From Bacillota bacterium (lineage in GTDB: Bacteria > Bacillota > Clostridia > Peptostreptococcales > Anaerovoracaceae), in assembly GCA_017397825.1 (NCBI GenBank), contig JAFQHT010000073.1, positions 1 to 63,885 of the forward strand: a DNA stretch of 63,885 nt, read 5' to 3'. Below the pieces are notes generated by a model. It saw only the letters and a program-made list of their open reading frames with translations, searched no databases and was not told where the DNA came from. Below are positions 24,078 through 47,504 of this stretch, in pieces. Made by a program: the position numbers and the translations under genes. Position 1 is the stretch's first letter, and each line of letters opens with the position of its first letter.

Positions 24078-24228
24078 TAAAAAACGCCACTGCAAATATC
24101 TGCAGCGACGTTGGTACGAGTTTGCTTTTATCTGTGAAAGCAAGTTTACCATAAGTAGGCTTTAATTACAACAGATTTTTTGCTAAAAAATCCAAAAAAA
24201 CATGTTTTTTTGACAGCACAAAACAGCG

Positions 24229-24259
24229 CCTGGTTCCTGATGCGGGGACCGGGCTTTTT
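24229..24259 (+). terminator. Rho-independent terminator before the matrix locus
   Basis: CCTGGTTCC (24229-24237) pairs with GGGGACCGG (from 24244), including G-U pairs, followed by five T. Confidence 0.7.
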
Positions 24260-24394
24260 GGCATTAGTAAAACTGATTCTGGCCCCGGGTCAACCTTAAG
24301 TTTTACTTATGATTGCCGGAATATGTATCAAAGAGATATCACATAATACAAATTCTGTAGTATGCGATCTGCTTATAAAAGAGGAAGGCAGCAT

Positions 24395-25351
24395 ATGGCT
24401 AAAAAAAATAAAAAACTTAATAACCAGGCTGCAGCTCCTGCACCAGAGAAAAAAAAGAAAAACACCAAGGGCATTGTTCTTAACGTGCTCTATTATGGTT
24501 TTCTTGTATTGCTGGTAGTGGGAGTTTTTTTAGTAAGCAACATGGGAAGCGGCGGCAAAGTAAAGACCTTCGGAGGTTTTGCTGCGCTGACGGTTCTTTC
24601 AAGCTCCATGGAGGACGTTTACCCTAAGGACTCCATCATCCTCGTAAAGGAAACCCCTGCCTCCGAACTTACAATCGGAGACGACATTACATACATTGCC
24701 AACCAGACAACTGTAATAACACACAGAATCATCGAAATCACCGAAAACGGCAACGGCCGGGGCGGCAGAGCCTTTAAGACAAAAGGTGTAAACAACCCGA
24801 ACCCTGACTCATACCAGGTATTCGAAGAAAACGTGGTCGGCAAGGTAATCTGGAGCAGCTACATACTTGGCCGCGGCATCAAATTCGTAAGCAAAAACTG
24901 GCCGCTGGTGCTTTTCCTGCTGGCAGTGTTCGTCGGACTTGTCATAGTTCTGAATAAGATATTGTCAGAAGACGACGATGAAGAAGGAGATGGTAAATCC
25001 AAGGAAGCTCAGCAGCATCAGGCAGTGCAGCCTGATGCGCCGCCGCAAGCTCCTGCACCGCCTCCAGTGCAGCCAATACCGCAGCCAGCTCCGGCAGAGC
25101 CAATGACTCAGCCTGCAGCTGCGCCCGTGCAGGCACCGCAGCCAGCTCCGGCAGAGCCTCCGCAGATCATTGCAGGCCCTGAAACCGTTGCAGACGGCCG
25201 CAAGACAGTGGTTGTCACCATCAGCCCGCAGAAGGGCGGCAAACCCGATAAGGAAAAAGCTCCTATCATCATCGAAATCACATCCGCAAACCCTGCGCCG
25301 GTCATCATCCATACGCCGGATGCAGCACACATAAAAGAGGCGGAAAAATAA
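24395..25351 (+). CDS. sipW: SipW-type signal peptidase I with proline-rich C-terminal tail
   Basis: A 318-residue membrane peptidase of the ER/SipW type, which uses a Ser-His pair instead of Ser-Lys. Ser71 is in L-S-S-S-M-E and His110 in I-T-H-R-I-I-E. A Lys-rich N-terminus and membrane segment (about 35-53) come first, the catalytic domain next, then a second membrane segment (about 170-193). The remaining 125 residues are an acidic linker, then Pro/Ala/Gln-rich repeats (about 205-260) and a Lys/Ile/Val-rich end, absent from B. subtilis SipW. The start is the ATG at 24395 with GAGGAAGG upstream. It heads a locus of seven proteins with SipW-type signals, its likely substrates. Confidence 0.9.
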   Translation: MAKKNKKLNNQAAAPAPEKKKKNTKGIVLNVLYYGFLVLLVVGVFLVSNMGSGGKVKTFGGFAALTVLSSSMEDVYPKDSIILVKETPASELTIGDDITYIANQTTVITHRIIEITENGNGRGGRAFKTKGVNNPNPDSYQVFEENVVGKVIWSSYILGRGIKFVSKNWPLVLFLLAVFVGLVIVLNKILSEDDDEEGDGKSKEAQQHQAVQPDAPPQAPAPPPVQPIPQPAPAEPMTQPAAAPVQAPQPAPAEPPQIIAGPETVADGRKTVVVTISPQKGGKPDKEKAPIIIEITSANPAPVIIHTPDAAHIKEAEK

Positions 25352-25444
25352 AAAACACCCATAAATTATCTATAAGACCAATTTAATCTCTGCTACACAG
25401 GCAAACAAACACGGGCAAGACTTAACGAACAGGAGGAGATTGAA

Positions 25445-25561
25445 ATGGCAGAAGTTCATAAAAAGTGCGCAGACAACAGAATAAAATTTTTCCAGGCGAC
25501 AAGTAACGAGGTCGCCATTTTGCGTTACATAAAAAACCTCAGGGAAAGGGGGAGTGGCTGA
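25445..25561 (+). CDS. Small 38-residue ORF before the first fibre paralogue
   Basis: The frame opens at an ATG with AGGAGGAG 6 bases upstream and ends TGA at 25559, three bases before the next gene's ATG. The product is basic and soluble (M-A-E-V-H-K-K-C-A-D, ending L-R-E-R-G-S-G), with one Cys and no membrane segment. The strong ribosome site and tight spacing suggest translation, perhaps as a leader coupling translation to the large downstream gene. No family recognised. Confidence 0.5.
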   Translation: MAEVHKKCADNRIKFFQATSNEVAILRYIKNLRERGSG

Positions 25562-25564
25562 TAT

Positions 25565-28228
25565 ATGGCGAGCAAAAAGAAGAAAAAAATATTTGAAGCA
25601 GTAATTGCAACCACCACAGCCGTCGCCCTGGCCATGGGCGGTACATTCGCATGGCAGAGCATCAGCCAGACAGCCCTCAACGAGTTTTCGGGAATCGTCA
25701 ACCCGGGCGGCCGACTGCACGATGACTTTGATGGACAGAACAAGGACGTGTATGTGGAAAACTTCGCCAGCGAAGACATATTCGCCAGAGTCCGGCTAGA
25801 CGAGTTCATGCAGATAACCATTAGCCCGGAAACTACCGAAATCATTACCAAGTGTGAGGATGGAAGTGATCCGACACTGGAAGACCGGGACGGTTGGCCG
25901 ACTCACATATTCGGACAGCCTAACCTGACCGACCAGTACTGGGAGTGGGAGACCGGCGGCTCCAAAGTCTACATGCCGACCTTCAATATGAACAAAGACA
26001 GCCAGGCGGCTGATGTGAATGGTACATACGAAGGTGATGATGGAGACCCGACAACAGGTGAACCATATAACGACTATGTAACCTATGCACTCGGCCAAAC
26101 ACTGACAGCTGATGAAACCTGGGACGATGACTCAGACGATGATCCTGACAATAATGTCAGGTATGTAAACAACACCCACACTGCAGTCTATACCCTGGAC
26201 GCCAAGCTCATAAGCATGGCCGAGTGGTATCAGCTTATTGCAGAAAACGGTGGTACATACAACCCGGCTCATTACAATGAAGGAGGCCACGGCAACTACT
26301 GGGTCTACGACACAGACGGCTGGTGCTACTGGTCCGCACCGATAAAGCCGCGGACCGCTACGGGACTTCTCCTGAATGAAGTCAGCCTCAGAAGCCCGAT
26401 GGACGACACCTGGTACTACGCAATCAACGTAGTGGGCCAGTTCATCACAGCCGACGACCTGGGCAGCCCTGAAGACGGCACCGGCTTCTACGATGCAAAC
26501 GCAGGCAAACCGCCGACAGACAGCGCGCTGCTCCTCCTCCACACCATCGGTGTTGACACAACAGGAGGCACAGGCAGGGCCACAGAGGTGAGCGACGCAG
26601 CAGCCTTTGAGCAGGCCCTTGAGGCAGGCGGAAATATCAAGATTAATGGTACGTTGGAACAAACTGCCGCAAAGCAACTGGCAGACCTGGGCTTTGAAAC
26701 CAACTACCTCTGGCACACAGGCGGAACCATCACAGACGGCATCCTCAATCTGAGTGCCAAGACATACACAGGACTTTTCATAAACAATGAAAATGGCTGG
26801 CCGGCAGATGCCGAAGCGGCGAACCCTGCAATCGCAGCAAACCCTGCAACCCTCAGATACACCACCATCAATGCAAACAGCACGATGGGCATCTACTCAC
26901 AGGCAATTGCAGCACCGGTAACACTGGACAATGTAACAGTCAACAGTGACTACTGCGGCATATACGCAGAGCACGGCGGCTCCACAACCACACTGAATAA
27001 TGTGACAGTGAACGCATGCCGGACACCAGACACAATCGAAGGCTACGACTGGTACAACACAGCAGTGGCCGCAGCAACCGGCGCACAAGTTATAATCAAC
27101 GGCGGTTACTACGAAGGAGATAACGCAGTTTATGTATTCTCCTCAGGAGCGACCGTAACCATAAACAGCGGTACTTTCAGAGGCGCTCTTAAAGCAGACG
27201 CACCGCAGCTTACAATCAACGGCGGAACCTTCGACCACGATCCTACAGCGTTCGTGGACCAGGAAAGCTACGATGTAATCCAGCTGGGAGATGGCTCTGC
27301 AGGAAGCGAAACCACATGGACAGTCCAGCCGAAACTGACCGCAGCAGCGGCAGCATCCGCAGACTGCACCATCCAGGTAACAGCCGACAGGACAATCTAC
27401 CTGGCAGGCAGCCAGGATACAATCACCCTGACCGCCATCGCCCGCGATGCCTTCGGCAATCAGGTTGACCTGACCGGCAGCGGAGACCTTAAATGGTTCA
27501 TGACCTCCGGCAGCGAGGCCTTCCCGGATGCTTTGACGGACAATAAGGACGGTACGGCAACCCTGGCAATAAACGGCCAGACCGTAAACTGCAGCATCAC
27601 AGCAGCCTTTGGCAGCCAGAGCGCGACAGTGAACATAACCGCAAGTCCGGACATTACGGCGGCGGGTCAGTCATACGCGTTAGCTCCTCTGGCCTCAGTG
27701 CCGTACGGAGCGCTGGAAACAGGCGGATACGCCGGACTTGACCCGGCAGGTGAAACCATTGCAGGCGGCAGCCAGGCAGACCTGACAGACCCGGCAGGTG
27801 CAGGAGCAAGCGCAGGCACGGCCGAACACGACTCGGCGGCCATCGAAAGCGGAAGCGGTTTCAACCTTCCGGCTTTCACACCGGACCCAGGCGCCCAGGC
27901 AGCCTTTGGAAAATATAACGATTATCTCAGCACAGAAGAGCAAAGCCCGGCCTACGCAAACCTGCTTTATTTTAAGGTGAGCAGCGGAGACCTGGCCCAG
28001 GTACAGCCGCAGAACATACGGGCAACGATTTACAGCCCGGACGGAATCTCCCTCAGCTTCACAACCAGCGACATACAGGTTGTAAATGAGGGCGGGGGCA
28101 GAATCGAATGCTTTGTGACAGCTACTGTGCCGCAGGAAACAGCAGCAGGCGACACATTCACAGCCCTGCTACGCTGGGAAATTGATGGTATAACTTATGG
28201 TAAAAGCATGACCTATAAGGAGAAATAA
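25565..28228 (+). CDS. Fibre paralogue A: SipW-dependent TasA/camelysin-like protein, beta-helix type
   Basis: An 887-residue secreted protein. The Lys-rich signal peptide ends G-G-T-F-A-W-Q-S-I-S-Q, the SipW-type pattern with cleavage probably after Ala. The mature start N-P-G-G-R-L-H-D-D-F and D-V-Y-V-E-N-F-A parallels TasA's K-P-G-D-K-L-T-K-D-F. The shared module Y-W-V-Y-D-T-D-G-W (about 245) with D-D-T-W-Y-Y-A-I-N-V-V-G-Q-F-I-T-A follows. Residues about 345-582 are short repeats (I-N-G-G-x-Y/F, F-I-N-N-E-N-G-W-P) suggesting a right-handed beta-helix; then an Ig-like domain (about 590-700) and an Ala/Gly-rich and acidic tail. No anchor motif or C-terminal membrane segment. The coding sequence looks more GC-rich than paralogues B-F. 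Role as matrix fibre or surface display protein is inferred. Confidence 0.75.
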   Translation: MASKKKKKIFEAVIATTTAVALAMGGTFAWQSISQTALNEFSGIVNPGGRLHDDFDGQNKDVYVENFASEDIFARVRLDEFMQITISPETTEIITKCEDGSDPTLEDRDGWPTHIFGQPNLTDQYWEWETGGSKVYMPTFNMNKDSQAADVNGTYEGDDGDPTTGEPYNDYVTYALGQTLTADETWDDDSDDDPDNNVRYVNNTHTAVYTLDAKLISMAEWYQLIAENGGTYNPAHYNEGGHGNYWVYDTDGWCYWSAPIKPRTATGLLLNEVSLRSPMDDTWYYAINVVGQFITADDLGSPEDGTGFYDANAGKPPTDSALLLLHTIGVDTTGGTGRATEVSDAAAFEQALEAGGNIKINGTLEQTAAKQLADLGFETNYLWHTGGTITDGILNLSAKTYTGLFINNENGWPADAEAANPAIAANPATLRYTTINANSTMGIYSQAIAAPVTLDNVTVNSDYCGIYAEHGGSTTTLNNVTVNACRTPDTIEGYDWYNTAVAAATGAQVIINGGYYEGDNAVYVFSSGATVTINSGTFRGALKADAPQLTINGGTFDHDPTAFVDQESYDVIQLGDGSAGSETTWTVQPKLTAAAAASADCTIQVTADRTIYLAGSQDTITLTAIARDAFGNQVDLTGSGDLKWFMTSGSEAFPDALTDNKDGTATLAINGQTVNCSITAAFGSQSATVNITASPDITAAGQSYALAPLASVPYGALETGGYAGLDPAGETIAGGSQADLTDPAGAGASAGTAEHDSAAIESGSGFNLPAFTPDPGAQAAFGKYNDYLSTEEQSPAYANLLYFKVSSGDLAQVQPQNIRATIYSPDGISLSFTTSDIQVVNEGGGRIECFVTATVPQETAAGDTFTALLRWEIDGITYGKSMTYKEK

Positions 28229-28230
28229 TT

Positions 28231-31200
28231 ATGGCAAGCAAGAAAAAAATCACAACCGCGGTGACTGCCGTAACCCTGGCAGTTGCACTGGCTCTGGGCG
28301 GCACATTCGCGTGGCAGTCTATCAGCCAGACCGCACTCAACGAGGCGTCTGATGTAATCAATCCGGGCGGGCGACTCCATGATGACTTCAACGGAGAAAA
28401 CAAAGACGTTTATGTTGAAAACTTCGCGGAAGATTCGATCTACGCGAGAGTGAGACTGGAAGAATATTTTGAAATTATTACAAATTACGGCAAAGAAGGT
28501 ATTGAGAGCAGTACCAATGTACTCGGAAGCAAGAACGATGATGGTACATATAACTACGAACTGTTCACTGACTATGACAACTTGAACGGTGATATCGTAT
28601 CCGCAGGCAACGATACTGACGGAACCTCATACTGGTCCTGGCAGACAGGCGGCGAAACTGTTTACATGCCTACATTCAATAAGAATAAGGACAGCCTTAA
28701 GGCTGATATCAATGGTATCTACGCAGAGGGTCATGTAGGAACAATCAGTAACAGAGTTCTTGATTTAACTGCTGATGATGCACAGTATTCTGCGTATAAA
28801 GAATACACTGCAGGCGAAGAAAAAACTGCAGAGGCAACCTACGACGCTGACTCCAACAGCGCTGAAGATGATGGCGTAACTGAAGTAGAAGAAACTCACA
28901 CTGCTAAAGCTACAGGCAACGCAACCCTCATCAGCATGGAAGACTGGCTTGATATGAACAATGTTTCTGTTACAGCAGCAGATGACCCATATGGTGTTGC
29001 ACCAGCCTTTGCACAGAATGAGATGGCCATACTGCACTATGATAAAAATGCAGAAGATGCCGAAGGTACAATTGCTGATGTGCAAGCATCATATGACAGT
29101 ATGCTTGATTTATCCGATGGCACTGGTTTCACCCGCGAAGGATATAGGATTGTTGGTTGGAACACAGCAGCTGATGGCACTGGCACACCCTATGCTCTTG
29201 GAGAAGAAAATTATGTATTACCTCAAGGTGAAACCACTCTTTATGCTGTGTGGGAGTTGGATAATGATCAGCAGCAGGAACCACAATCACAGGACGGCTA
29301 CTGGGTATACGACACAGACGGCTGGGTTTACTGGTCACAGCCAATCGCACCAGACACAGCAACAGGCCTTCTCCTTGACGGAATCCAGCTCAATCAGGTA
29401 ATGGATGATACATGGTACTACGCAATTAATGTAGTTGCACAGTTCGTAACAGCAGATGATGTTGGTAAAGCAGACGGCACAGGCTTCTATGTAGAAGGAA
29501 CAGAACCTACAGCGGAAGCTGAAGCACTGCTCAAGACAATCGGTGTGATTATTGATGATGAAGCAGGCGAAGACGGTGATGGCGAGGGATACACCGAAGC
29601 TCTTTCCGATATTAACTTTGTTTATGGTGAAGCATCCGCAACCGTCTACAGAGGAACATCCTATACCTTTGGCAACGTAGCTACCGGTGGTTTCCCAGTC
29701 AATCCTACAGCTGCTGAAATCACCACTGACGGTGCTGCCAGCTATGTCAACGATGATTTGATTATCGTGATAGATGAAAATGAGTCAAATGATAGCCTCA
29801 GTTTGGCCGTGACCTACAGTGGCGATGGTGGTGAGCCTTATACTGAAACAGTTACTCTGACAGTACTGGACCCTGCAGAGCCTACAGATGAAGTAGCACT
29901 TCAGGATGCATTCGAAACAGGCGGCATGATTAATCTTGGTGAAACCGAAGTCTACGCAACCGAAGCAGAACCCATTACTAATATTAAAGCTGACTTCCTT
30001 TGGACTGAAGGCGGCACATTAAACGGCGGCGTTATCAACGGTACATCTTCCACCGCTGATAATGACAGCGACTCCTATACTACACTTTTCATAAACAATG
30101 AAAAGAATTGGCCTGAAGAAGGTGACGAAGCAAATTACGCCACAATCAATGATACCATAATCAACTCCGAGTCTGACTTCGCAGTGTATATCCAGACTTG
30201 TGATGCCGGAGCAACGCTAAACGGCGTGACTATCAACGGCAAGTTCGGCGGTCTGCTGGCTGAATACAACGAAGACGGCCAGTACTGCGTTAACTTGAAC
30301 GACGTAACCATCACTGCCGGTAGCAATCACAAAACTGACTGGGTAAACACTGCAGTAGCAGCAGCGCATGATGCTATCATTAACATTTACAGCGGTACAT
30401 ACACAGCAGAAAAGGAAGGATACGCAGCATACGTATTCTCTTCCGGCGGCACAATCAACATTTTTGATGGTATTTTTGAAGGTAAACTCAGAAACGATGC
30501 CGGAGCAAATGGCAATATCAACATCTACGGCGGTACATTCGACAATGATCCTACAGCGTATGTAGATACAGAAAACTATAAAGTTGTAGACAATGGTAAT
30601 GGTACTTGGACAGTACAGGAAATCCAGCGTGGATTGTATACACTTTATTTAAAAGACTCTGAAGGTAACTATTACGACAATGATAACTTAAATGATGGAT
30701 TTGTTAGTAAAGTTCATCAGGTTGCTGGTTCCCAAATTACTGTAGAAGCAGGATATACAGCTAATCCAGGATGGGAACTCCCTGAAGATGTAGCAGTTGC
30801 CATGGCAGCATATGGCCTTGCTGCAGATGGATGGGAAGCTTCGAATAGCATAGTGTTCAATAGTGTAACTGCATACACTGAAGGAAACAATCCATATATA
30901 TTTAATGCAGAAACTGGTGTCCTTTTAAATGATTCTGACGAAGCAGTTGCTACAATTAACGAGGATATGACAGCAATCACTATCAACAAGATAGTGGATA
31001 ATCTCATCATTGACGTTTATCTGATAAAAGATGGCCAGCGTATTGAATCAACAGGCAGCTCATCTGATGTTGACAAGCTCTTTAACAGCAAATACTTTGT
31101 TGTAAGTGATTCAACCGGAGGGGGTACTGAGTTAGCTGAGTTCGGATATATTGAACTCTGGTCGGACAAGACTCCATATGATAGTAACCCTATAGACATG

Positions 31201-31482
31201 ACGCAACCATATGACAATAGGCTGACTTACGAAAACAGCGCAGTCTACGGTGCGGAATGGGCCTATTGGAACATGCGTGTCTATGATGTAGATGGCAATG
31301 TACTTCCTGCAGATGACATTGTAGTGGAAGTGTTTGATGATCCGACTCCTGTATGGACCGAAGTAGAAGCTTTAGCTGATTATGATACACCTACATATGC
31401 CATCACAATGTGGAGTACATATGTGGGGATTAAAATTACATACGGCGAAGAAGAATACGAATTTTCAATTAATGTCTATTAA
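28231..31482 (+). CDS. Fibre paralogue B: beta-helix type with InlB B-repeat insertion
   Basis: A 1083-residue paralogue starting 3 bases after A's stop. The signal ends G-G-T-F-A-W-Q-S; the mature start is N-P-G-G-R-L-H-D-D-F-N-G. Between the I-S-M-E-D-W-L motif and the Y-W-V-Y-D-T-D-G-W module (about 356) there is an insertion (about 266-345) that looks like an InlB B-repeat/Flg_new domain (F-T-R-E-G-Y-R-I-V-G-W-N-T, ending T-T-L-Y-A-V-W). Residues about 550-797 are beta-helix-like repeats matching A and D. The last 285 residues are Tyr/Asn/Asp-rich and unique. Very acidic, no anchor. GGAG precedes the ATG. Confidence 0.75.
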   Translation: MASKKKITTAVTAVTLAVALALGGTFAWQSISQTALNEASDVINPGGRLHDDFNGENKDVYVENFAEDSIYARVRLEEYFEIITNYGKEGIESSTNVLGSKNDDGTYNYELFTDYDNLNGDIVSAGNDTDGTSYWSWQTGGETVYMPTFNKNKDSLKADINGIYAEGHVGTISNRVLDLTADDAQYSAYKEYTAGEEKTAEATYDADSNSAEDDGVTEVEETHTAKATGNATLISMEDWLDMNNVSVTAADDPYGVAPAFAQNEMAILHYDKNAEDAEGTIADVQASYDSMLDLSDGTGFTREGYRIVGWNTAADGTGTPYALGEENYVLPQGETTLYAVWELDNDQQQEPQSQDGYWVYDTDGWVYWSQPIAPDTATGLLLDGIQLNQVMDDTWYYAINVVAQFVTADDVGKADGTGFYVEGTEPTAEAEALLKTIGVIIDDEAGEDGDGEGYTEALSDINFVYGEASATVYRGTSYTFGNVATGGFPVNPTAAEITTDGAASYVNDDLIIVIDENESNDSLSLAVTYSGDGGEPYTETVTLTVLDPAEPTDEVALQDAFETGGMINLGETEVYATEAEPITNIKADFLWTEGGTLNGGVINGTSSTADNDSDSYTTLFINNEKNWPEEGDEANYATINDTIINSESDFAVYIQTCDAGATLNGVTINGKFGGLLAEYNEDGQYCVNLNDVTITAGSNHKTDWVNTAVAAAHDAIINIYSGTYTAEKEGYAAYVFSSGGTINIFDGIFEGKLRNDAGANGNINIYGGTFDNDPTAYVDTENYKVVDNGNGTWTVQEIQRGLYTLYLKDSEGNYYDNDNLNDGFVSKVHQVAGSQITVEAGYTANPGWELPEDVAVAMAAYGLAADGWEASNSIVFNSVTAYTEGNNPYIFNAETGVLLNDSDEAVATINEDMTAITINKIVDNLIIDVYLIKDGQRIESTGSSSDVDKLFNSKYFVVSDSTGGGTELAEFGYIELWSDKTPYDSNPIDMTQPYDNRLTYENSAVYGAEWAYWNMRVYDVDGNVLPADDIVVEVFDDPTPVWTEVEALADYDTPTYAITMWSTYVGIKITYGEEEYEFSINVY

Positions 31483-31502
31483 AATAACGAAAGGAGCCAA
31501 TT

Positions 31503-34334: not shown

Positions 34335-34359
34335 TAAAACAAATGAAAGGAGCCTAATT

Positions 34360-36765: not shown

Positions 36766-36868
36766 CGCTCATTACTCAGAACTCCCCATCTGCATTAGCT
36801 ACTGGGACAACGAGACTTTCTGCTGACGGTCTGGCTAATAAACAACGTAACAACTTGGAGCATCCTCC

Positions 36869-36903
36869 GGTCAATTTGCCAGTCGCTGTCTGGCAGATTG
36901 ACC
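36869..36903 (+). promoter_or_regulatory. Strong 14-bp hairpin between paralogues D and E
   Basis: Arms 36869-36882 and 36890-36903 pair over 14 positions with one G-U pair and a 7-base loop. There is no T tract, so it is more likely an mRNA stabilising or processing structure than a terminator. It lies 27 bases before the E start codon. Confidence 0.6.
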
Positions 36904-36929
36904 TGCTCACATTAGATTAGGAGAATTTT

Positions 36930-39734
36930 ATGGCAACAAAAAATAAAAAAATAGCAACGGCCGTAACGGCTGTAACTCTTGCGGTTACTATGGCTGTAGG
37001 CGGAACTTACGCTTGGCAGAGCATTAGCCAGCAGGCCCTCAACGAAGCATCTGACGTTATCAATCCGGGTGGACGTCTCCATAACGATATGTGGTACGTA
37101 AGCGCCCAGGAAAACAACAACGACATCTACGTTGAGAACTTTGCGGAAGACGACATCTACGCCCGCGTCCGCCTCAGCGAATACATGAAAATTATCTCTA
37201 ATTACGGTGCGGATAATCAGGACATTGTGAAGTCCAATCAGATTCTCGGCAGTAAGAATGATGATGGTACATATAATTACGAATTATTTAAATTTGATGG
37301 AAATGTAGACGAAAACGGTGTAGTCAGTGCTGGTGGTGCCAATGAAGATGGAGAACCATACTGGTCCTGGCAGACTGGTAATGAAGACAGCGAAACTGTT
37401 TACTACATGCCAACATTCAATAAGAACAAAGACTCCCTTGCACCAGACCTTAACGGCCTCTACAGAGACCGCATAGGCGGCATCAGCAACCGTGGCGAAG
37501 ACCAGTATATCGGTACAGAAGTTGACGCAGAAGGTAATCCCATTGCTGTTACGGAAGGCTATGCTGATGGAGATACACTTGAAGGCTACGAAATTTTTGA
37601 CGCTGACAGTGATGATATTGATGATATCGGCACAGACCCACTTGTAATTGCGGACATAATTAAAACTGGAGTAGGTCATGATGAAGCACACAATATTGTG
37701 TCATATACAACGCATAATGCAGAGGAAGTAGGAACTACCCGTGGCCTCATGAGCATTGACCAGTGGCTTGCAGAAGTTGGCTACGATGCTACAACTGGCG
37801 AAGCACCTGCCTATGACCCTGATGTTCACGGCAACTATTGGGTCTATGACGAAGACGGCTGGGTATACTGGTCCGGCGCAATCGCAGGCGGCGAAGCAAC
37901 CGGTCTCCTCCTCGACGGCACAAAACTCAACCAGGTCATGGACGACACCTGGTACTACGCAATCAAAGCTGAAGGTGAATTCATCACAGCCGACGATTTA
38001 GGTGAACCATACCTACCTGACGCAGACACCGACGAAAACGGCGGAGCCACAACATACAACCTTCGTACAACTTCTGATATCGTTGATGACGGAAACGGCG
38101 GAAATAATAGTGATGACACAATAATTGAAGGCGGCCCAGCTGTTCCTATGCCAGACGACGGCAACGAAGGCGATGACCCTATCGCTCAGCCAGAAGGCAC
38201 CGGCGGCACCGGCTACTACAAAAACGGCATCACAGAAGAAGCTCTCGCACTCCTTTCCATCATTGGCGTACAAGTTGGCGATGACGAAGAAGGCGAAGTT
38301 AGCGGCGGTGGAGTGGCACCAAAGACAGTTACCCTGGAGCTTACTCAAGATGGTAGAAATACAGTTGAAGCCAATATTGGAGATACTATTATTCTTACCA
38401 CAACAGGTTTGGAAGAAGATCTGAGCAACATATTTTTAGATACATGGGTTGATAACGAGGATTGGGCGTTCGATGGCACAGCACATACTGTGGCATTCTA
38501 CGATGAAACCTTGGTTGGCAAAACAATGAAAATTGAAGATGCTGTAAATTGGTGCTATGGATTTGTTACTTTCGTTGGTGTTGCTGATGGTGTAGGAGAT
38601 GACTCCGGTAACGGTGATGATACGGGCACAGAAGAGCTGGAAACTTATTTGTTGCTTACGGAAAGTGGTTCAAATAGTGCTACTGTAGCTTTGGGTGATA
38701 AAACCAAAATTAAGGTAGATGAAAATATAGATTACGATGTAATCCGTGTATATGCACAGAGTGAAGACGATGAGGAAGATAGCTATTATTACGAAGAAGA
38801 TTATCACTATGAATTGACAGAAGATAACGTACTTACAATAAACTATAGTGGCTCAATAGGAAAGAAACTTTTCATTCGTGCAGAAACGGGCGAAGAAATT
38901 ACTGAAGTAATTGATGGCGAAGAATATACTTATACACAATACACTCCTGTGGCATACGCTCAATTGACCACAATGTACAAATACAGTTATTACTATAACA
39001 ATGCACCTATTGATAAAGGAATAGAAATTCCAGTAACTGTTGATGAACTTTGTGAGGGTATCGAAATAACACTTTGGGACAATATCGAAAATAAAGAATT
39101 AGATTCAGAAGATTACGCATCTATTGAAAATACATTATCTTATAGTATAGATGACACATTTATTGATAGAGAATTTGAGTTATTTGGAGGAAGCTATGAA
39201 AATAATGTACTAAAGATTACCAATGCTTCTTACGATACAAAATCTGAATATGAACTTGGATATGCGCTAACTACAGGAGATAAATTCCTAATCGAATTTG
39301 ATGCAAGAAGGTATAATGATGAGGATGAAAGCAGTACTGTAATGGCAAGAACTGATTTTGTGATTGTTATTACAGACGATGGCAGAATCAGCAGTACTGA
39401 TGGAGAACTTGTAGAATTAAGCACAATTTCACTTGCAATTGACGGTACTGCAAATCTGGAACTGAAAAAAGGAAATACATATAATTTACAAGATTTTAGT
39501 TGTTCTTGCGGTAGATACGGAGAAGGGGAAGTCTTGCATTATCCTCTTAACGCTAGACTGTATGGTAATGAATTTGCTCCTGCCAGCATAGTGAGAATTG
39601 ATAACGGAATGACAATTATTTCTGTTGATGAAAATGAACCGAATGGCACATTAGTACTTACAGGTGAGTGTCATGGTGATCCTGATGGTGATAGCGGACA
39701 TTATTATAAAGTTACAATAACCGTATCTAATTAA
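36930..39734 (+). CDS. Fibre paralogue E: Ig-like type, very acidic
   Basis: A 934-residue paralogue with signal G-G-T-Y-A-W-Q-S-I-S-Q-Q-A-L-N-E. The mature start N-P-G-G-R-L-H-N-D-M-W-Y-V and D-I-Y-V-E-N-F-A-E-D, the Y-Y-M-P-T-F-N-K-N-K-D-S-L segment and D-R-I-G-G-I-S-N place it with C and F. The module appears as Y-W-V-Y-D-E-D-G-W (about 304). After it comes an Asp/Asn/Gly-rich linker (about 360-430) before beta-rich domains dense in Glu, Asp and Tyr. Its 5' end is nearly identical to that of F at DNA level. TAGGAG precedes the ATG. No anchor. Confidence 0.72.
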   Translation: MATKNKKIATAVTAVTLAVTMAVGGTYAWQSISQQALNEASDVINPGGRLHNDMWYVSAQENNNDIYVENFAEDDIYARVRLSEYMKIISNYGADNQDIVKSNQILGSKNDDGTYNYELFKFDGNVDENGVVSAGGANEDGEPYWSWQTGNEDSETVYYMPTFNKNKDSLAPDLNGLYRDRIGGISNRGEDQYIGTEVDAEGNPIAVTEGYADGDTLEGYEIFDADSDDIDDIGTDPLVIADIIKTGVGHDEAHNIVSYTTHNAEEVGTTRGLMSIDQWLAEVGYDATTGEAPAYDPDVHGNYWVYDEDGWVYWSGAIAGGEATGLLLDGTKLNQVMDDTWYYAIKAEGEFITADDLGEPYLPDADTDENGGATTYNLRTTSDIVDDGNGGNNSDDTIIEGGPAVPMPDDGNEGDDPIAQPEGTGGTGYYKNGITEEALALLSIIGVQVGDDEEGEVSGGGVAPKTVTLELTQDGRNTVEANIGDTIILTTTGLEEDLSNIFLDTWVDNEDWAFDGTAHTVAFYDETLVGKTMKIEDAVNWCYGFVTFVGVADGVGDDSGNGDDTGTEELETYLLLTESGSNSATVALGDKTKIKVDENIDYDVIRVYAQSEDDEEDSYYYEEDYHYELTEDNVLTINYSGSIGKKLFIRAETGEEITEVIDGEEYTYTQYTPVAYAQLTTMYKYSYYYNNAPIDKGIEIPVTVDELCEGIEITLWDNIENKELDSEDYASIENTLSYSIDDTFIDREFELFGGSYENNVLKITNASYDTKSEYELGYALTTGDKFLIEFDARRYNDEDESSTVMARTDFVIVITDDGRISSTDGELVELSTISLAIDGTANLELKKGNTYNLQDFSCSCGRYGEGEVLHYPLNARLYGNEFAPASIVRIDNGMTIISVDENEPNGTLVLTGECHGDPDGDSGHYYKVTITVSN

Positions 39735-39823
39735 CGAAAAAACCATTATATGGCAGAATATGAAAAAGAAGCAATGGCAGTAACCATTACGATTAAATTA
39801 CCATAATAATTTAATAATCACAC

Positions 39824-39842
39824 GGCGGCACATAGTGCCGCC
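39824..39842. repeat. GC palindrome after paralogue E
   Basis: GGCGGCAC, loop ATA, GTGCCGCC. The 29 bases 39821-39849 recur exactly at 42385-42413, after paralogue F. A second hairpin (TGCCC ... GGGCA) and an AT-rich tract follow and may terminate E transcription. Confidence 0.7.
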
Positions 39843-39971
39843 CTCTGCCCTGACTTTATGGGCATAAATAATTTTTAATTTCCCTTAAACTAAAAAGCTG
39901 CAAGCAGGTTAACTCAGGCTTTCTGTGGTAATGACGAAAATTGTCTGTGGCGGCAGAAAAGGAATAACTTT

Positions 39972-42365
39972 ATGAAGAAAAATAAAAAAATAGCAACGGC
40001 CGTAACGGCTGTAACCCTTGCAATTGCAATGGGTGTGGGGGGGTCTTACGCTTGGCAGAGCATTAGCCAGCAGGCCCTCAACGAAGCCTCTGACGTTATC
40101 AATCCGGGTGGACGTCTCCATAGCGATTTCTACATAGAAGATGATGGCGATTATAACGCTGATATTTATGTGGAAAACTTTGCGGACGACGATATTTTCG
40201 CCCGCGTGCAGCTCAGTGAATACATGGAGTGCGTGATTAATTACGGCAACGCAAACGCTGAGATTGTGGACACCATCGTGGGCAGCAAGTCCCTGGATGG
40301 TACACTTGTGACCGATAAAGCCACTGACAACACCAGCGATTATGAATATGAGTACGTAACTCATTATTTCGACCAGACCAACGCTACTGATGCTTTCTGG
40401 GACTGGACCATGGGCAAGACAGACGGCCCACAGGTTTACTACATGCCAACTTTCAACATGAACAAAGACTCCCTTGTGGCAGACCGCAACGGCATGTACG
40501 TTGACCGCATCGGTGGCATCAGCAACCGCGGCCAGCAGCAGTACCAGGAAAATGGAGCAAATACCTGGACTGTATGGACTGAAAATGCCACTAAAACCGG
40601 CACTGAAATCCATGACACAGACTCCAACTGGGCCGACGAAGTTAAGTACGATTTTGAAAATCTGGCAACTTATGAAACCGCCGGAAACATCGCAACTAAA
40701 GAAGCAACCCACACGGCAGACCTCGTTGGCACTACCAACGGCCTCATCAGCATGAGCGAGTGGATAGACAAGCTGAACAACGGCGAAGAAACAGCAGACT
40801 ACTGGGTATACGACACTGACGGCTGGGTTTACTGGTCATCACCAATCAAAGCCGGCAAAACAACCGGCCTGCTCCTCGACAGCATCCAGCTCGATAACGT
40901 AATGGACGACACCTGGTACTATGCAATAGAAGCAACCGGCCAGTTCGTGACAGCAGGCGATGTAGGCAACGCAGACAATACAGGCTTCTACGCAGATGCA
41001 AACCGGCAGCCTACTGAAAACGCAGAAAAACTTCTGGAACACATAGGCGCAATCGTAAAAGAACCCGTAACAGTAACAATTTCCAGCCCGTTTGAATTTA
41101 CATGGACAGGTAGTTGGGGCAACTTCTACGACACAGAATCCGGTTATGCGCCTCTCACCATTGAGACAAGTGACGGCAAAGACTACGAATGGGAATGGAC
41201 TGTGGAAGGATCAGTTGTTCCAGATGGACAGGAAGCTTCTTATGTTGAAGATTGGGACGAATATAGTCTTAAGATAAGCCCATATGAGCAGGCAAATTTA
41301 TTGACATTAACTGCAACTGCAACAGATAACCCTGCCGTCAATGGTTCTTTCACAATTCCGGTTAAAAGCACTAATGGCATGATGATTATGGTTAAGGATG
41401 ACCAGGGTTACTTCGGATTCAATGACCTGCAGTTCGACAATGACAATTACCCTGTTTTCGTAACTAACTCTGAAGGTAAAGTGCAGAATATGACAGCCCT
41501 TGAAATTGTTAATACGGATGAAGTAGACCCGAACACCAAGGTGGTACGCGGTGATTCAGTGACTATTCATGATGATGATGGTGAAAGTTCAGTTACTTTT
41601 GATCAGGGCTTCTATGTAGATATCGCACCTACAGAAGATGTTTCCCATGTCTTGCTGAAAGCAACGCTGGAAGATGGCAGTGTAGTAGAGATGTACGTGA
41701 GCATCTGGTATGATGGTATTTGGGTTTATACAAATGACTTGTCTCATTTATACCCAAAAGCAGAATTTGTTGCGTATGTTAGTAATGAAGACGAAGTTCC
41801 TGCCGATGCAGACGGAAACAGAAGTTTTACATGCGATATTGACTGGAATGGTATAGACTCTGATAATTTTAAAGTAGAACAGATTACATATACAGATCAT
41901 TGGGGAGAAGAGTATCCAGGGTTTAAAATTACTCACAATTGCGAAGAAGGTCAGTGTACCTGTGTAGATGAAGCTACTGAAATCAAGATAAAAATTACAA
42001 ACGCCAACTCGTCTGCACAGAGCGGCGAGACCAGTGTATACGTGGTATCTGAAAAGCCTTCTCTTGAAATTGGTACTCTGAATCAGATATGGTATGATGA
42101 GTGGGATGAGTACGTATGGGACAGTGCTGTAGGTGAAACCATGGAAGTCGAAAGTGGAAAAACAGTTTATTTTGGTGTAAATAACGGATATACTAGTGCA
42201 GACTGGACTCTAACTAAGGGTGAAGATGAGGTTACTTCAACTGATTCTTCACAATACACCTACACCTTTAGCGAAGCTGGTACATATGTGCTTACAGCAT
42301 CCCGCAATGGATGGAAGAGTGATAGCGTAACTATTACTGTTACTGAAGCAAACGCGACCGAATAA
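39972..42365 (+). CDS. Fibre paralogue F: Ig-like type
   Basis: A 797-residue paralogue. The signal ends G-V-G-G-S-Y-A-W-Q-S-I-S-Q-Q, and the mature start N-P-G-G-R-L-H-S-D-F-Y-I-E-D-D-G-D-Y-N matches C. The Y-W-V-Y-D-T-D-G-W module is at about 277, and the C-terminal 430 residues look like Ig-like domains rich in Trp, Glu and Asp. DNA of the signal region is shared with E, and a 62-base block is shared with C. A run of seven G (40037-40043) lies inside the signal-peptide codons. No good Shine-Dalgarno is visible upstream (only GGAATAAC). No anchor. Confidence 0.72.
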   Translation: MKKNKKIATAVTAVTLAIAMGVGGSYAWQSISQQALNEASDVINPGGRLHSDFYIEDDGDYNADIYVENFADDDIFARVQLSEYMECVINYGNANAEIVDTIVGSKSLDGTLVTDKATDNTSDYEYEYVTHYFDQTNATDAFWDWTMGKTDGPQVYYMPTFNMNKDSLVADRNGMYVDRIGGISNRGQQQYQENGANTWTVWTENATKTGTEIHDTDSNWADEVKYDFENLATYETAGNIATKEATHTADLVGTTNGLISMSEWIDKLNNGEETADYWVYDTDGWVYWSSPIKAGKTTGLLLDSIQLDNVMDDTWYYAIEATGQFVTAGDVGNADNTGFYADANRQPTENAEKLLEHIGAIVKEPVTVTISSPFEFTWTGSWGNFYDTESGYAPLTIETSDGKDYEWEWTVEGSVVPDGQEASYVEDWDEYSLKISPYEQANLLTLTATATDNPAVNGSFTIPVKSTNGMMIMVKDDQGYFGFNDLQFDNDNYPVFVTNSEGKVQNMTALEIVNTDEVDPNTKVVRGDSVTIHDDDGESSVTFDQGFYVDIAPTEDVSHVLLKATLEDGSVVEMYVSIWYDGIWVYTNDLSHLYPKAEFVAYVSNEDEVPADADGNRSFTCDIDWNGIDSDNFKVEQITYTDHWGEEYPGFKITHNCEEGQCTCVDEATEIKIKITNANSSAQSGETSVYVVSEKPSLEIGTLNQIWYDEWDEYVWDSAVGETMEVESGKTVYFGVNNGYTSADWTLTKGEDEVTSTDSSQYTYTFSEAGTYVLTASRNGWKSDSVTITVTEANATE

Positions 42366-42384
42366 CGTATTTATTTGCAATTAG

Positions 42385-42525
42385 CACGGCGGCACATAGT
42401 GCCGCCCTCTGCCATGGGTCTTTTGGGGCAGTGCCGGGCGCATGGGCGCACACAGTTGCGTCCGGCATCATGGGTGCAGGCGCACAACTGCACTTTGCCT
42501 TATAAGGGCCTGTGGCAGAGGGCGG
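42385..42525. repeat. Structured inverted-repeat element after paralogue F
   Basis: A 12-bp perfect inverted repeat (CCGCCCTCTGCC at 42402-42413, complement at 42514-42525) encloses at least two more stems: 42432-42437/42462-42467 and 42474-42479/42488-42493. In front lies the palindrome shared with 39821-39849. It could be a small non-autonomous mobile element with terminal repeats or a structured RNA. No open reading frame. With array 2 it fills the 489-base gap between F and the CnaB gene. Confidence 0.6.
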
Positions 42526-42547
42526 ATTACTATCGGTTTAATTAAGG

Positions 42548-42739
42548 AAACACCACTTTTATAAGTAAAATCATCAGAGAGAGTGGTGTTTTGATGGTAT
42601 GTCACATGTTTTGAGTGGTAAAAACACCACTCTATTGCACATAAAAAACAGTCAGAGTGGTGTTTTTTCATATTTCAGACGCTTTCTGGAACGAAATCAC
42701 CACTTAAACAGCTAATAATGGCAGCAGGAGTGGTGTTTT
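42548..42739. repeat. Array 2: three inverted-repeat units with 73/74-bp period
   Basis: Same design as array 1, 26 kb away. Left arms CACCACTC/CACCACTT start at 42551, 42625 and 42698; right arms GAGTGGTG at 42581, 42655 and 42728. Arm distance is again exactly 30 and unit spacing 74 and 73. The 22-base middles differ, although unit 3 resembles unit 4 of array 1 (both begin AAACAG and contain TAATAAT). Spacers of 35-36 bases are unique. Confidence 0.85.
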
Positions 42740-42854
42740 CGACATTTTCCGACAGGGCAGCAGCAGACCCCGAATATCAGCAGCAGCTCCTGGAGGAGCT
42801 GGGGCTGTAAGCAGAACATAAAAGAATATAAAAAAGAAAGAAGACACAGGGTAC

Positions 42855-45800
42855 ATGGTAAGAAAACTGGCGTTTGAGTACAACCGAATATTGCTGATTA
42901 TTTTTACCATTATTTTTGCGGTGTCTTCTTTTATGTCCGGGTCCTATGCGTGGCAGTCTCTGGAGCAGTTTGCGACCAACACCATGCAGGGGGTGGTGGC
43001 TCCTACCAACGTGAAACTGACTAAATACGAAAAGCCTGCTGACGGCGGACCGCTGCAGAAGCGGCTGGAGGGGGCGGAGTTTTATCTTTACGAAGTGGTG
43101 GAGGATAAAGACGGCGAAACTGACATGGAGCAGATCGGGGCCGTTTACACTACCAATGCCAGCGGCGAGATCAGACTTACGCTGCCGGAGGGCGACTACT
43201 GTTTTAAAGAAATCACGCCGCCAATGGGCTATACTTTTGATGATGAGCATGGGCCTAAGTATTATTTCCAAGTGGCCACCGGCCAGCGGTCGGAGATTAA
43301 TGTGCTGAACGTGCTTCTGACCGGGGACCTGACCATTACCAAAACTGTGTGGAATTACGCGGCGGCAGATGGCGAGCCTACTGAAGGACAGAAGGCAAAA
43401 GACTTTACTTTCCGCGTGGATTTCGGCCAGGCGGGCGAGTATGAGTATCAGGTACGGCCTCTTTATGAGGCGGAGCTTGAGCCTGACTCTGCAGAATATA
43501 TTGAAAGGGAGCAGCAGATACCGACTTATACTGTTTCCAGCGGCGGCACAATTACGCTGAAGCACGACCAGAAGGCAGTGTTTAAAAACCTGCCGGTGGG
43601 GCTTTCTTATTCAGTGACTGAACTTAATTCGCCGGGCTACAGCATAAGTTCTGACGGGGCCAGCGGCAATATTACCGAAGAGGGCTGCGTGGCTGATTTT
43701 ACTAATAAATATTACGGCGGCGAAAAAGGCACTCTGAAGATTACCAAGGTTGTCGAAGATGTTGACGGCAATGTGCTGACCGATGACCATAAAGAATTTG
43801 AATTTACTGTTATCATCGACGGTGTGAAGGTAAAAATGAAGGATGATGGGGGAAATCCCCATGATGTGAAGCTTTCAAACAACCAGTCCGCATCCTGGAC
43901 CGGCATACCGCTGGGAGCAGAATATGTCGTAACTGAAAAAGATTATACCGGCAACGGTTACTACCCTGAAATCCGCGAGTACCGCGGCCAGATTACAGGT
44001 GAAGAGCCTGTGGAGCTGGTGTTTACCAATGTATATAACCCTGCACCTGGTGGACAGGGAAGCCTGACCATTAAAAAGACTGTAAAAACGCCCGATGGCA
44101 CTGCGGCAGACCCTGACAAGGAATTTACTTTCTGGGTGCAGGCTGAAGGTCTGGGCGAAAAAACTTACACGCTGAAGGCCGAAGAAACCATAACGATTTC
44201 GGGCATTAAAGTGGGCGGCCAGTACACAATCCGCGAAACCGACTGGGATTACTACATTCCGAAGACCCTTGAAGTCAGCGGAACTATTACCCATTCCGGC
44301 GAAGACCACTTTGTTGAGTTTATAAACACCAAGCCTTCCTACGGCAGCGAAATCGAGCAGCTGACCGTGACCAAGGTTGTGGCAGGCAATGCGCCTGACG
44401 CAGACAAACTGGGAAAAGAATTTGAGTTTTCCCTTTACATAGACGGCAAGCTCTGGAAGTCCACCGGCTACGTGACTAAAAGAGACGGTACATATGAGTA
44501 CTTTACTGACGTGGAAACTTTCCTGGTCAAAGACGGCGAAACGGCTCAGGTGAACAATCTGCCGGTGGGTGCCACATATGAGGTAGTTGAAAAAAATTAT
44601 TTCGGTGAGGGCTACAGCCTTTCCATGGAAAAATCCATGGGTACTATTAACCTGAACCCTGCGGGCGGTGCAGAGGATGTTATCGCGGTCAATACTTTTA
44701 TCGGCAGCGAAACTGTGGATATTTACGGAGAAAAGACCTGGGACTGGGGCGATAATTACGCCGGCACGGCCAAGCCTTATCCGGAGTCAGTCATCGTGAA
44801 GCTTAAAAACGTAGGCGAAGGTCTGGTGGTGGCCCAGCAGGAAGTGACTGCCGGCACTGACGGACGGTGGCTGTATACTTTCCACGGCGTGCCTAAGTAC
44901 AACGCGTCCGGCGAAAAAATCGTATACGCGGTGCAGGAAGTGGTGCCGAAAGGATTTTCTGCCACATACACCATCGCAGAAGGAAGCGGCGGCTGTGTTC
45001 AGAATATTAAAAATACTTACACCGGACAGAACAAATACGAGCCTGTGACGGTTGATCTGCCTGTGATTAAGAAGACGGTCAGCGGCAGCAGCATCCCTGA
45101 AACTACATTCAGTTTCGTGATGAAAAACAGTTCTTCCAAGGTTATCCGGAGGGCGGCTGTGACCTGCGACGGTTACAGAACTGAGGCCGCTGCGGCGCTG
45201 GGGCAGATTACTTACGACAAAACGGGTATTTACAAATATACAATTACAGAAATCAACGACAAAGCCTCCGGCTGGACTTACGACACTGCCAAGTATCAGC
45301 TGACAGTAAACGTTTACCTGGGTAATGACGGCAAGCTGAGAGCGCAGAAATCCATGACCAGAAACGGCAAGGCATGGAATGGCAGCTTTGCAGAGTTTGC
45401 GAACAGTTACAGCGGCGGCTATGTGCCTCCTGGTCCAGGACCGGGACCTGACCATGAAAGCACTTACGTGTGGGTCAGCGGCACTAAAACCTGGATTCAC
45501 GGCGTTAACCCTGCCGATGCCCGACCTGCCTCCATCGTGGTAAAAATCTACGGCGACGGCAAGCTGGCAACTCAGAAAATGATTACGGCATCTGATGGCT
45601 GGAAATACTCTTACTACGCTCCGAAGTACAATGCTCTCGGGCAGCTGATAAAATACACTGTGGAGGAAGACCCGGTTGATGGGTACACTACTGAAGTGGT
45701 GGGCTACGATATCGTGAATACGTTCATTCCGCCTGTGGACCCTGATGATCCGGGGCCTGGAGATGATCCGGACGGTCCTGGAGGCACTGATGAACCAGGA

Positions 45801-46016
45801 AGTGACAAGCCGGGAAGCGACAAGTCGGGCACTGACAAACCGGGAAGTGACAAGCCGGGCAGTGATAAGCCGGGCGAAGACGACGCCCAGTCCCCTGAAA
45901 AAGTCCCTGAAACCGGTATCGGCGACTTCGACCTGCTTTTCTGGGTGATGATGATGCTTATCAGCGGACAGTGCATGATCCTGCTGATCCTTATCAGAAA
46001 GGGCAGAATTACATAA
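42855..46016 (+). CDS. Multi-CnaB/SpaA-type surface protein with SipW-type signal and VPETG anchor
   Basis: A 1053-residue cell-wall protein. The N-terminal membrane segment ends S-G-S-Y-A-W-Q-S-L, like the fibre paralogues. About eight to nine beta domains of the CnaB/SpaA type follow, such as G-A-E-F-Y-L-Y ... Y-C-F-K-E-I-T-P-P-M-G-Y (about 70-140), several T-I/V-T-K-x-V domains, and a FctA-like pilin domain (about 735-850). Members of these families often form Lys-Asn/Asp isopeptide bonds. A Pro-rich spacer and G-S-D-K-P repeats (about 955-1015) lead to V-P-E-T-G, a hydrophobic segment and R-K-G-R, a sortase sorting signal. No sortase is in the window. It probably anchors or caps the fibre. 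No strong ribosome site is seen before the ATG. Confidence 0.85.
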   Translation: MVRKLAFEYNRILLIIFTIIFAVSSFMSGSYAWQSLEQFATNTMQGVVAPTNVKLTKYEKPADGGPLQKRLEGAEFYLYEVVEDKDGETDMEQIGAVYTTNASGEIRLTLPEGDYCFKEITPPMGYTFDDEHGPKYYFQVATGQRSEINVLNVLLTGDLTITKTVWNYAAADGEPTEGQKAKDFTFRVDFGQAGEYEYQVRPLYEAELEPDSAEYIEREQQIPTYTVSSGGTITLKHDQKAVFKNLPVGLSYSVTELNSPGYSISSDGASGNITEEGCVADFTNKYYGGEKGTLKITKVVEDVDGNVLTDDHKEFEFTVIIDGVKVKMKDDGGNPHDVKLSNNQSASWTGIPLGAEYVVTEKDYTGNGYYPEIREYRGQITGEEPVELVFTNVYNPAPGGQGSLTIKKTVKTPDGTAADPDKEFTFWVQAEGLGEKTYTLKAEETITISGIKVGGQYTIRETDWDYYIPKTLEVSGTITHSGEDHFVEFINTKPSYGSEIEQLTVTKVVAGNAPDADKLGKEFEFSLYIDGKLWKSTGYVTKRDGTYEYFTDVETFLVKDGETAQVNNLPVGATYEVVEKNYFGEGYSLSMEKSMGTINLNPAGGAEDVIAVNTFIGSETVDIYGEKTWDWGDNYAGTAKPYPESVIVKLKNVGEGLVVAQQEVTAGTDGRWLYTFHGVPKYNASGEKIVYAVQEVVPKGFSATYTIAEGSGGCVQNIKNTYTGQNKYEPVTVDLPVIKKTVSGSSIPETTFSFVMKNSSSKVIRRAAVTCDGYRTEAAAALGQITYDKTGIYKYTITEINDKASGWTYDTAKYQLTVNVYLGNDGKLRAQKSMTRNGKAWNGSFAEFANSYSGGYVPPGPGPGPDHESTYVWVSGTKTWIHGVNPADARPASIVVKIYGDGKLATQKMITASDGWKYSYYAPKYNALGQLIKYTVEEDPVDGYTTEVVGYDIVNTFIPPVDPDDPGPGDDPDGPGGTDEPGSDKPGSDKSGTDKPGSDKPGSDKPGEDDAQSPEKVPETGIGDFDLLFWVMMMLISGQCMILLILIRKGRIT

Positions 46017-46032
46017 GTTTAAAAACCTTTCC

Positions 46033-46098
46033 GACCGGTCTTGCACACGCCGGTCATCCACCGAAAAAACACTGGATTCGCACCCCAGTGTTTTTTTG
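46033..46098 (+). terminator. Two hairpins ending the matrix locus
   Basis: GACCGG/CCGGTC (46033-46038/46050-46055), then AAACACTGG/CCAGTGTTT (46067-46075/46085-46093) followed by a T run. The second is a clear rho-independent terminator. Confidence 0.85.
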
Positions 46099-46155
46099 TA
46101 AAACAGGAATAATTAAGAATAAAACGGAATATAATAGAATAAACTTTAAAAAACA

Positions 46156-46184
46156 TTGACTTTTTTGAAGTTAAATGGTAAAAT
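46156..46184 (+). promoter_or_regulatory. Sigma-A promoter of the fic gene
   Basis: TTGACT (46156-46161), 17-base spacer, TAAAAT (46179-46184) with extended TG. The Fic gene is therefore transcribed independently of the matrix locus. Confidence 0.75.
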
Positions 46185-46216
46185 ACAGGAAAATTTTCTT
46201 AAAAAGGGGGATTTTT

Positions 46217-47500: not shown

Positions 47501-47504
47501 GTTG

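Follow-up and report, generated by a model that had tools for sequence, protein, structure and literature searches.

A putative phase-variable, wall-anchored surface-fibre island with six giant subunits in a clostridial genome

What would a bacterium build from six giant secreted paralogues encoded in tandem behind a SipW-type signal peptidase, and how would it control them? This question is raised by a stretch of 63,885 nucleotides (contig JAFQHT010000073.1 of assembly GCA_017397825.1; hereafter the window) from a metagenome-assembled genome (MAG) of a Bacillota bacterium of the family Anaerovoracaceae. In the list of open reading frames (ORFs), the peptidase gene is followed by the six paralogues and then by a CnaB-type protein that carries a sorting signal, every one of them on the plus strand (Table 1). 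An initial annotation had proposed a TasA-like surface fibre here, and its gene set (SipW, six paralogues of 797-1083 residues and the CnaB protein) was found at the ORFs it had assigned. Its span of 24395..46016 omits a recombinase gene, paired inverted repeats and a Fic gene that belong to the same inserted block. The fibre genes had been described there; the recombinase-plus-repeat switch and the island had both gone unnoticed. We consider it rather probable that the whole forms a self-contained, phase-variable, wall-anchored island for a surface fibre with several kinds of tip.

Table 1. Features of the putative fibre island, with positions in the window
Feature	Position	Strand	Remark
Island: recombinase, putative invertible segment, sipW, six fibre genes, anchor and Fic gene	23173..47504	.	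Edges taken from the flanking ORFs
XerD/XerA-like tyrosine recombinase, 278 aa	23207..24043	+	Pfam Phage_integrase 2e-27
Left inverted repeat, 22 bp	24055..24076	+	Proposed recombination site ACATAA-TTTGTA-TTATGT
Segment predicted to invert, 264 bp, between repeats	24077..24340	.	
Candidate promoter TTGTAA-17-TAAACT with TG extension	24143..24171	-	Weak; points away from sipW
Intrinsic-terminator-like hairpin and T run	24228..24254	+	Between recombinase and sipW as assembled
Right inverted repeat, 22 bp	24341..24362	-	Proposed site ACAGAA-TTTGTA-TTATGT
SipW-type signal peptidase, proline-rich C-terminal tail	24395..25351	+	TIGR02228 over cut-off
Putative fibre subunit p1, 887 aa	25565..28228	+	Module, beta-helix-like stretch, Ig-like domain
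Putative fibre subunit p2, 1083 aa	28231..31482	+	Module with Flg_new insert, beta-helix-like stretch
Putative fibre subunit p3, 943 aa	31503..34334	+	Related to p6 up to about residue 500
Putative fibre subunit p4, 801 aa	34360..36765	+	Module, beta-helix-like stretch
Putative fibre subunit p5, 934 aa	36930..39734	+	Tip unlike those of the other paralogues
Putative fibre subunit p6, 797 aa	39972..42365	+	Related to p3 up to about residue 500
Putative anchor, 1053 aa	42855..46016	+	SipW-type signal, short fibre-like N terminus, SpaA/DUF7601/DUF5979/FctA/CnaB domains, VPETG signal
Fic-domain protein	46175..47440	+	Weak HTH match; within block

Recombinase and inverted repeats upstream of sipW

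The recombinase encoded upstream of sipW matches the NCBIfam XerA and XerD models with E values of 4.5e-44 and 4.5e-38, under their equivalog cut-offs. The left arm of an inverted repeat begins 11 bp beyond the end of its gene, and the right arm lies directly 5' of sipW. The score of this repeat is reached by none of 200 shuffles, and the same holds for a related locus with the same layout (L007). The start of sipW is at 24362 or 24395; a purine-rich stretch precedes 24395, and the alternative ATG at 24362 touches the right arm.

This arrangement recurs. Homologues of the recombinase, sought in relatives as an independent test, were found at nine places in 7 of 61 genomes, the window genome included, and together with the related loci L007 and L008 these make 11 recombinase loci. 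Both repeat arms are present in eight of them, counting the window, with inner segments of 202-274 bp; the arms start at positions from 5 bp upstream to about 50 bp downstream of the recombinase gene's end. In the other three (L098, L101 and L102) the contig stops within about 300 bp and there is no arm pair, one site still being present in L101. The arms share a common site, ACAGAA-N6-TTCTGT, with 8 to 12 of the 12 half-site positions matched in each arm. Within a locus the 6-bp centre is identical in the two arms, and no two of the eight loci have the same centre. Such a pattern is expected of tyrosine recombinases, whose two sites must agree in their centres. The eight recombinase-linked repeats score 16, 18, 11, 24, 18, 13, 15 and 21, and 142 other mechanical ORF ends, searched within slightly narrower limits, gave a best score of at most 12. 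Paired inverted sites beside a tyrosine recombinase are the arrangement of an invertible promoter. Of 24 loci compared, L007 and L008 alone contain the exact site. A common-site pair is absent among the repeats listed upstream in L003, L004, L005, L006, L009 and L010, which lack the recombinase.

The 264-bp segment is probably an invertible promoter. Promoter-like sites were scored with weights of our own and a consensus from general knowledge, and the better strand was picked before shuffling, which flatters the result about twofold. On this scale, 0 or 1 of 150 shuffles reach the score in L007, L096, L099, L100 and L103; the sites in L008 and L097 are weak (10 and 7 of 150, respectively). 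The best site faces the downstream genes in L096 and L099 and points away from them in the other six of the eight loci, with L008 nearly balanced. Because the candidate promoter in the window faces away from sipW and a terminator-like hairpin stands before that gene, the window has probably been assembled in the OFF state. The recombinase would invert the segment. In one orientation the promoter would drive sipW, the six fibre genes and the anchor gene, and in the other, as assembled, it would face away and leave the terminator before sipW.

A degenerate form of the site pattern occurs at three places in the window genome, namely the two arms and position 123-140 of contig C102; a control pattern occurs once in forward and not at all in reverse orientation. 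That contig starts part-way through a second would-be element (L038, positions 1-4900 of C102 in genome G000); a perfect ACAGAA-N6-TTCTGT site is present there, and a small ORF and then a 1462-aa secreted-looking protein come after it. The window genome may hold more than one switched locus, with C102 perhaps carrying another surface locus. Several of these loci have, directly 3' of the predicted invertible segment, a small ORF containing YLSDL or YISDL: L008 (5843-6091), L096 (reversed, 2355-2621), L099 (2290-2550) and L038 (47-508); none was seen in the window. In L102 (reversed, 1311-2396) the recombinase frame diverges from the family close to its end and continues as sequence resembling the small ORFs, as though the segment had been lost or wrongly assembled. 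A distant recombinase from a viral contig, with 22% identity, was not used.

Putative fibre subunits and their putative anchor

The six paralogues share an N-terminal module of about 350-470 residues at about 40-65% identity, with best BLASTP E values of 5e-48 to 5e-168, far beyond chance. A common N-terminal half had been described in the initial annotation, as had signal peptides with A-W-Q-S in all seven proteins and the N-P-G-G-R-L motif in all six paralogues, and each of these observations holds. The further statement that the C-terminal halves differ needs correcting, as not all of them do; p5 stands apart. A beta-helix-like stretch is common to p1, p2 and p4 (37% identity for p1-p2 and 42% for p2-p4 in tip-only alignments; 47% for p1-p4 in an alignment that takes in the module too), and p3 and p6 are 56% identical up to about residue 500. 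The Ig-like domain of p1 resembles Invasin_D3 (2.8e-5, under the Pfam cut-off), and the Flg_new insert of p2 passes its Pfam cut-off narrowly (27.4 bits against 27). None of the C termini of p1-p6 carries a sorting signal. The peptidase passes the NCBIfam SipW-type model TIGR02228 (85.9 bits, cut-off 51.85) and scores 78.6 bits with the Bacillus SipW model NF046067, below its 190; its gene adjoins the fibre genes, as would be expected for SipW-dependent export.

No Pfam family reaches its cut-off for the module itself in p1-p6. The TasA/camelysin family PF12389 gives 14-21 bits for p1-p5, against a cut-off of 22.5, and leaves p6 unmatched; its alignment covers only about residues 4-42, that is, the signal region. 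We compared the module by hhalign with a set of 17 TasA/camelysin sequences, made up of TasA and 16 proteins drawn from 27 loci, of which the remaining 11 yielded either a duplicate or no sequence matching the pattern. With the signal peptide kept, the probability was 92.5%. With mature sequences only it fell to 0.3-3.6% (E of 0.2-0.012; reversed control 0.1%), with a short aligned stretch in a plausible, expected register (TasA LTKDFQFENNGSLAIKEVLM). The kinship to TasA/CalY put forward initially is therefore unsupported as stated. By profile, the BsaA family, which had not been named, is nearer. Its model TIGR04090 matches the mature part of three of the six paralogues (18-24 bits, E of 2.8e-5 to 1.5e-3) and, in the genome search, five of the six (21-27 bits). 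Diverged relatives match it better, the best being L042:451-2256 with 39.3 bits (E of 5.7e-10, profile positions 5-211 of 241, signal included). These matches amount to sequence homology below the cut-off, and we call the module a divergent relative of the BsaA family by sequence, with direct kinship to TasA as a further possibility. A search of the module sequence against solved structures gave a single chance-level match (E of 1.3).

The CnaB-type protein has the features of an anchor. It ends in VPETG, a hydrophobic stretch and RKGR, and its SpaA, DUF7601, DUF5979, FctA and Cna_B domains all exceed their Pfam cut-offs. In BLASTP searches against p1-p6 it shows no recognisable fibre module and aligns over 29-46 residues only, covering the signal and the first residues beyond it. 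The mature N terminus is near-identical in all six fibre paralogues, and we compared the anchor's first 18 residues, counted from the aromatic after the signal, with the fibres in the eight loci that hold both. The anchor scores highest with the fibres of its own locus in six of the eight (in L003 tied with those of the window); own-locus fibres rank second for the L005 anchor and third for the L004 anchor. Only the true pairing, 1 of 40320, reaches the observed sum, a statistic that ignores shared descent, and the first six loci alone (window, L003, L004, L005, L007 and L008) give 1 of 720. Shuffled residues reached at most 136.5 in 300 trials, against 310 observed. A fibre-like mature N terminus without a fibre module is the pattern of TapA, which is not known to have a sorting signal. 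TasA fibres of B. subtilis are reported to form by donor-strand assembly (PMC9674648, PMC10151520), the TapA N terminus AFHDI copies AFNDI of TasA, and TapA is proposed as donor of the first strand and held to be unable to sit inside the TasA filament (PMC10151520). The analogy suggests that the anchor may be a TapA-like fibre initiator that is also fixed to the wall.

The single sortase found in the MAG (contig C17) passes the class B cut-off. Neither a class C sortase nor sorting signals on shaft proteins, as in a sortase-assembled pilus, were found in this MAG, which is 82% complete. Genes similar to this sortase occur in L008, L024 and L043; with the class B model, that of L024 passes (156.7 bits, cut-off 153.75) and that of L043 fails (130.7).

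In the assembly that we propose, SipW would trim all seven proteins to a mature N terminus of the form W-Q-S-I-S-Q-x-A-L-N-E. Following the TasA and TapA precedent, each freed strand would enter the module of the subunit beside it. The anchor would start the fibre, since it has a donor-like strand and no recognisable module to receive one, and a class B sortase would attach it to peptidoglycan. Mixed fibres of the six subunits could then form, displaying beta-helix, Ig-like and other tips with which to bind in the gut.

The gene set in relatives and the inserted block

We compared 12 related stretches, eight of them loci from a scan of genome contigs and four from genomes G019 (two contigs), G361 and G548. 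Goat cecum and chicken are named as the source of some of the eight. SipW is present in nine (L003, L004, L005, L006, L007, L008, L010, L023 and L024) and missing in L009, L042 and L043, each a whole contig of 5.7-11.6 kb. An anchor with CnaB/DUF7601-type domains is present in seven. L006 and L023 have no CnaB anchor despite available flank, and L023 has a short sorting-signal-like protein. As to whether homologues regularly lack SipW or an anchored CnaB partner, the picture is mixed. The idea of an anchored SipW fibre, as first annotated, is partly supported, gaining from these gene sets and from the matching N termini of anchor and fibres. The module is rare, being found at an E value of 1e-20 in 3 of 393 genomes sampled from the order and 2 of 398 sampled from the phylum, with the window genome counted each time. 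Seven pattern matches for the module on viral contigs yielded no confirmed case.

Some of the related proteins are built differently. In the fibre-module protein L003:4162-6735, a Hint/intein-like domain (PT-HINT, 1e-18) forms the very C terminus, and in L023:9205-10788 one open frame joins a SipW-type peptidase and a fibre module. DUF6273 occurs in the long fibre proteins L004:3483-6935, L006:3791-6301, L007:4525-6663 and L008:9998-12742, and was not found by Pfam in the six paralogues of the window.

The gene to the left of the block (22240-23172) is present in all six genomes of the genus. We compared the site in four of the five same-genus relatives (L112, L113, L114 and L115); the fifth, G001, has its flanking gene divided between two contigs and was not included. 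The orthologues of 22240-23172 and 47505-50165 adjoin each other in L112 and L113, and in L114 and L115 the left-gene orthologue adjoins that of 50500-51810. The block is thus missing at the matching site in all four, and a separate search found a fibre gene in none of the five same-genus genomes. Gain of the island in the window lineage is the simpler reading, with repeated loss as the alternative. No direct repeats longer than 9 bp were found at the island edges, and base composition leaves the island unmarked (46.2% versus 46.3%). The Fic protein could be a modifier of a target protein or a passenger. The adjoining gene at 47505-50165, outside the island, encodes a transglutaminase-core and peptidoglycan-binding protein; it is kept beside the left flanking gene in L112 and L113 and missing there in L114 and L115.

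Alternative readings and known counterparts

Several observations weigh against the reading of a switched, BsaA-type fibre. On the side of the switch, 12 of 150 shuffles reach the score of the window's promoter candidate, which is weak. The repeats of L008 are not significant alone: 21 of 200 shuffles do as well, and 4 of the 142 control ends, from a search with the narrower limits noted above, reach its score of 11. Because the arms were detected as repeats, some of the identity of centres within a locus is built in. The motif alone is unspecific, since the site pattern at up to two mismatches occurs at 12 places in the window against 3.3 expected; it is the pairing of arms beside the recombinase that counts as evidence. 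The segment is assembled as a single copy in one orientation, and a search for a second genomic copy found none. Only L007 and L008 have the recombinase among the nine SipW-bearing related stretches. On the side of the fibre, profile kinship of the mature module to TasA/camelysins stays insignificant with intermediates added, no module protein reaches the curated TIGR04090 cut-off of 60 bits, and the N-terminus statistic is uncorrected for shared descent.

These points bear on three other accounts of the locus. The seven proteins might be separate secreted or loosely bound adhesins that share a SipW-type signal and a paralogous domain and do not co-polymerise, behind a switch that is perhaps real. 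Their size speaks for this, as 797-1083 residues is far larger than BsaA (about 23 kDa) or TasA (26 kDa), and so does the resemblance of several C-terminal parts to Ig or beta-helix adhesin domains, in a locus where the fibre is a prediction from sequence. We nevertheless hold it unlikely, given that the module is related to the filament-forming BsaA family and that six near-identical mature N termini lie at the donor-strand place of TasA and are resembled, locus by locus, by the anchor. Less likely still, the genes may be an ordinary matrix-fibre operon under conventional regulation, with the repeats a relic that the recombinase no longer flips. The weak promoter candidate fits such an account, as does the fact that a recombinase is not shown in seven of the nine SipW-bearing stretches (L003, L004, L005, L006, L010, L023 and L024). 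What stands near sipW instead, judged by inspection, is a response regulator in L004, a two-component-like pair in L005 and Rrf2-like genes in L006 and L010. Yet the recombinase frame is open, the arms are well matched, and one layout kept in eight loci, each with a centre of its own, would hardly be expected if the sites were out of use.

The recombinase could also be the integrase that brought the island, the repeats being attachment sites and inversion having no regulatory role. A tyrosine recombinase does stand at the edge of a block that is absent at the matching site in relatives. This account strikes us as very improbable, however: the recombinase and repeats recur beside unrelated genes and share no common island (by inspection, the neighbours include an acetyltransferase, a zinc-ribbon protein and a PIG-L-like protein), the two arms stand together on the same side of the recombinase, and the island edges show no direct repeats longer than 9 bp.

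Each element of the phase-variable, anchored fibre island has precedent, in BsaA and TasA/TapA fibres, CnaB stalks, class B sortases and RecV- or Fim-type switches. SipW-dependent matrix fibres, TasA and BsaA among them, are known biofilm material. In the C. perfringens sipW-bsaABCRSD locus, as in the window, SipW stands beside a secreted filament protein, and the module is linked to the family of that protein, TIGR04090; its expression is bimodal in the population, which we count as a likeness to the proposed switch (PMC7395162). BsaA has no LPXTG-like sequence, whereas the window has six giant subunits and an anchor with a sorting signal, and deletion of the nearby srtB left the pellicle and the BsaA profile unchanged (PMC7395162). 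Unlike in our proposal, bimodality there is linked with pilA2 and a two-component system rather than with promoter inversion (PMC7395162). The tapA-sipW-tasA locus of B. subtilis likewise has SipW-processed subunits and a minor partner that copies the mature N terminus of the fibre (PMC10151520); it has one main fibre protein against six giants here, and the available text mentions no inversion switch.

The proposed switch resembles that of the type 1 fimbriae of E. coli, where recombinases (FimB and FimE) lie beside an invertible promoter segment of about 300 bp, fimS, that drives a donor-strand fibre (PMC2784873, PMC5903667, PMC9674648). Those fimbriae differ in their Gram-negative chaperone-usher assembly, unrelated subunits, two recombinases and lack of a wall anchor. 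C. difficile cwpV offers a XerC/XerD-family recombinase (RecV), imperfect 21-bp repeats and a 195-bp segment before a surface gene; recV is not adjacent, however, the segment is described without a promoter, and a terminator in the OFF transcript is proposed (PMC2784873). Sortase-assembled pili (FctA/SpaA/CnaB) are built of the same domain types as the anchor and differ from the window's MAG, in which only a class B sortase was found and the fibre subunits are without sorting signals. A literature search of titles and abstract openings, with most subscription journals outside it, found no description of a SipW fibre that is controlled by an inversion switch or starts from a sortase-anchored initiator. 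More tentatively, the island may perhaps be an independently arisen Gram-positive counterpart of type 1 fimbriae, with a fimS-like switch, a donor-strand fibre of six giant subunits that are interchangeable and differ in their binding ends, and a sortase-anchored CnaB initiator as donor of the first strand, the whole passed as a unit between gut Clostridia.

Here, a SipW-type fibre looks wall-anchored, fitted with several different tips and placed behind a probable on/off DNA switch. If this is true, gut Clostridia own a phase-variable adhesive organelle comparable with fimbriae. The family of recombinase and segment, with common half-sites and locus-specific centres, would offer a simple way of finding further switched operons of uncultured Clostridia by sequence, and counts of segment orientation in metagenome reads would tell when the fibre is made.

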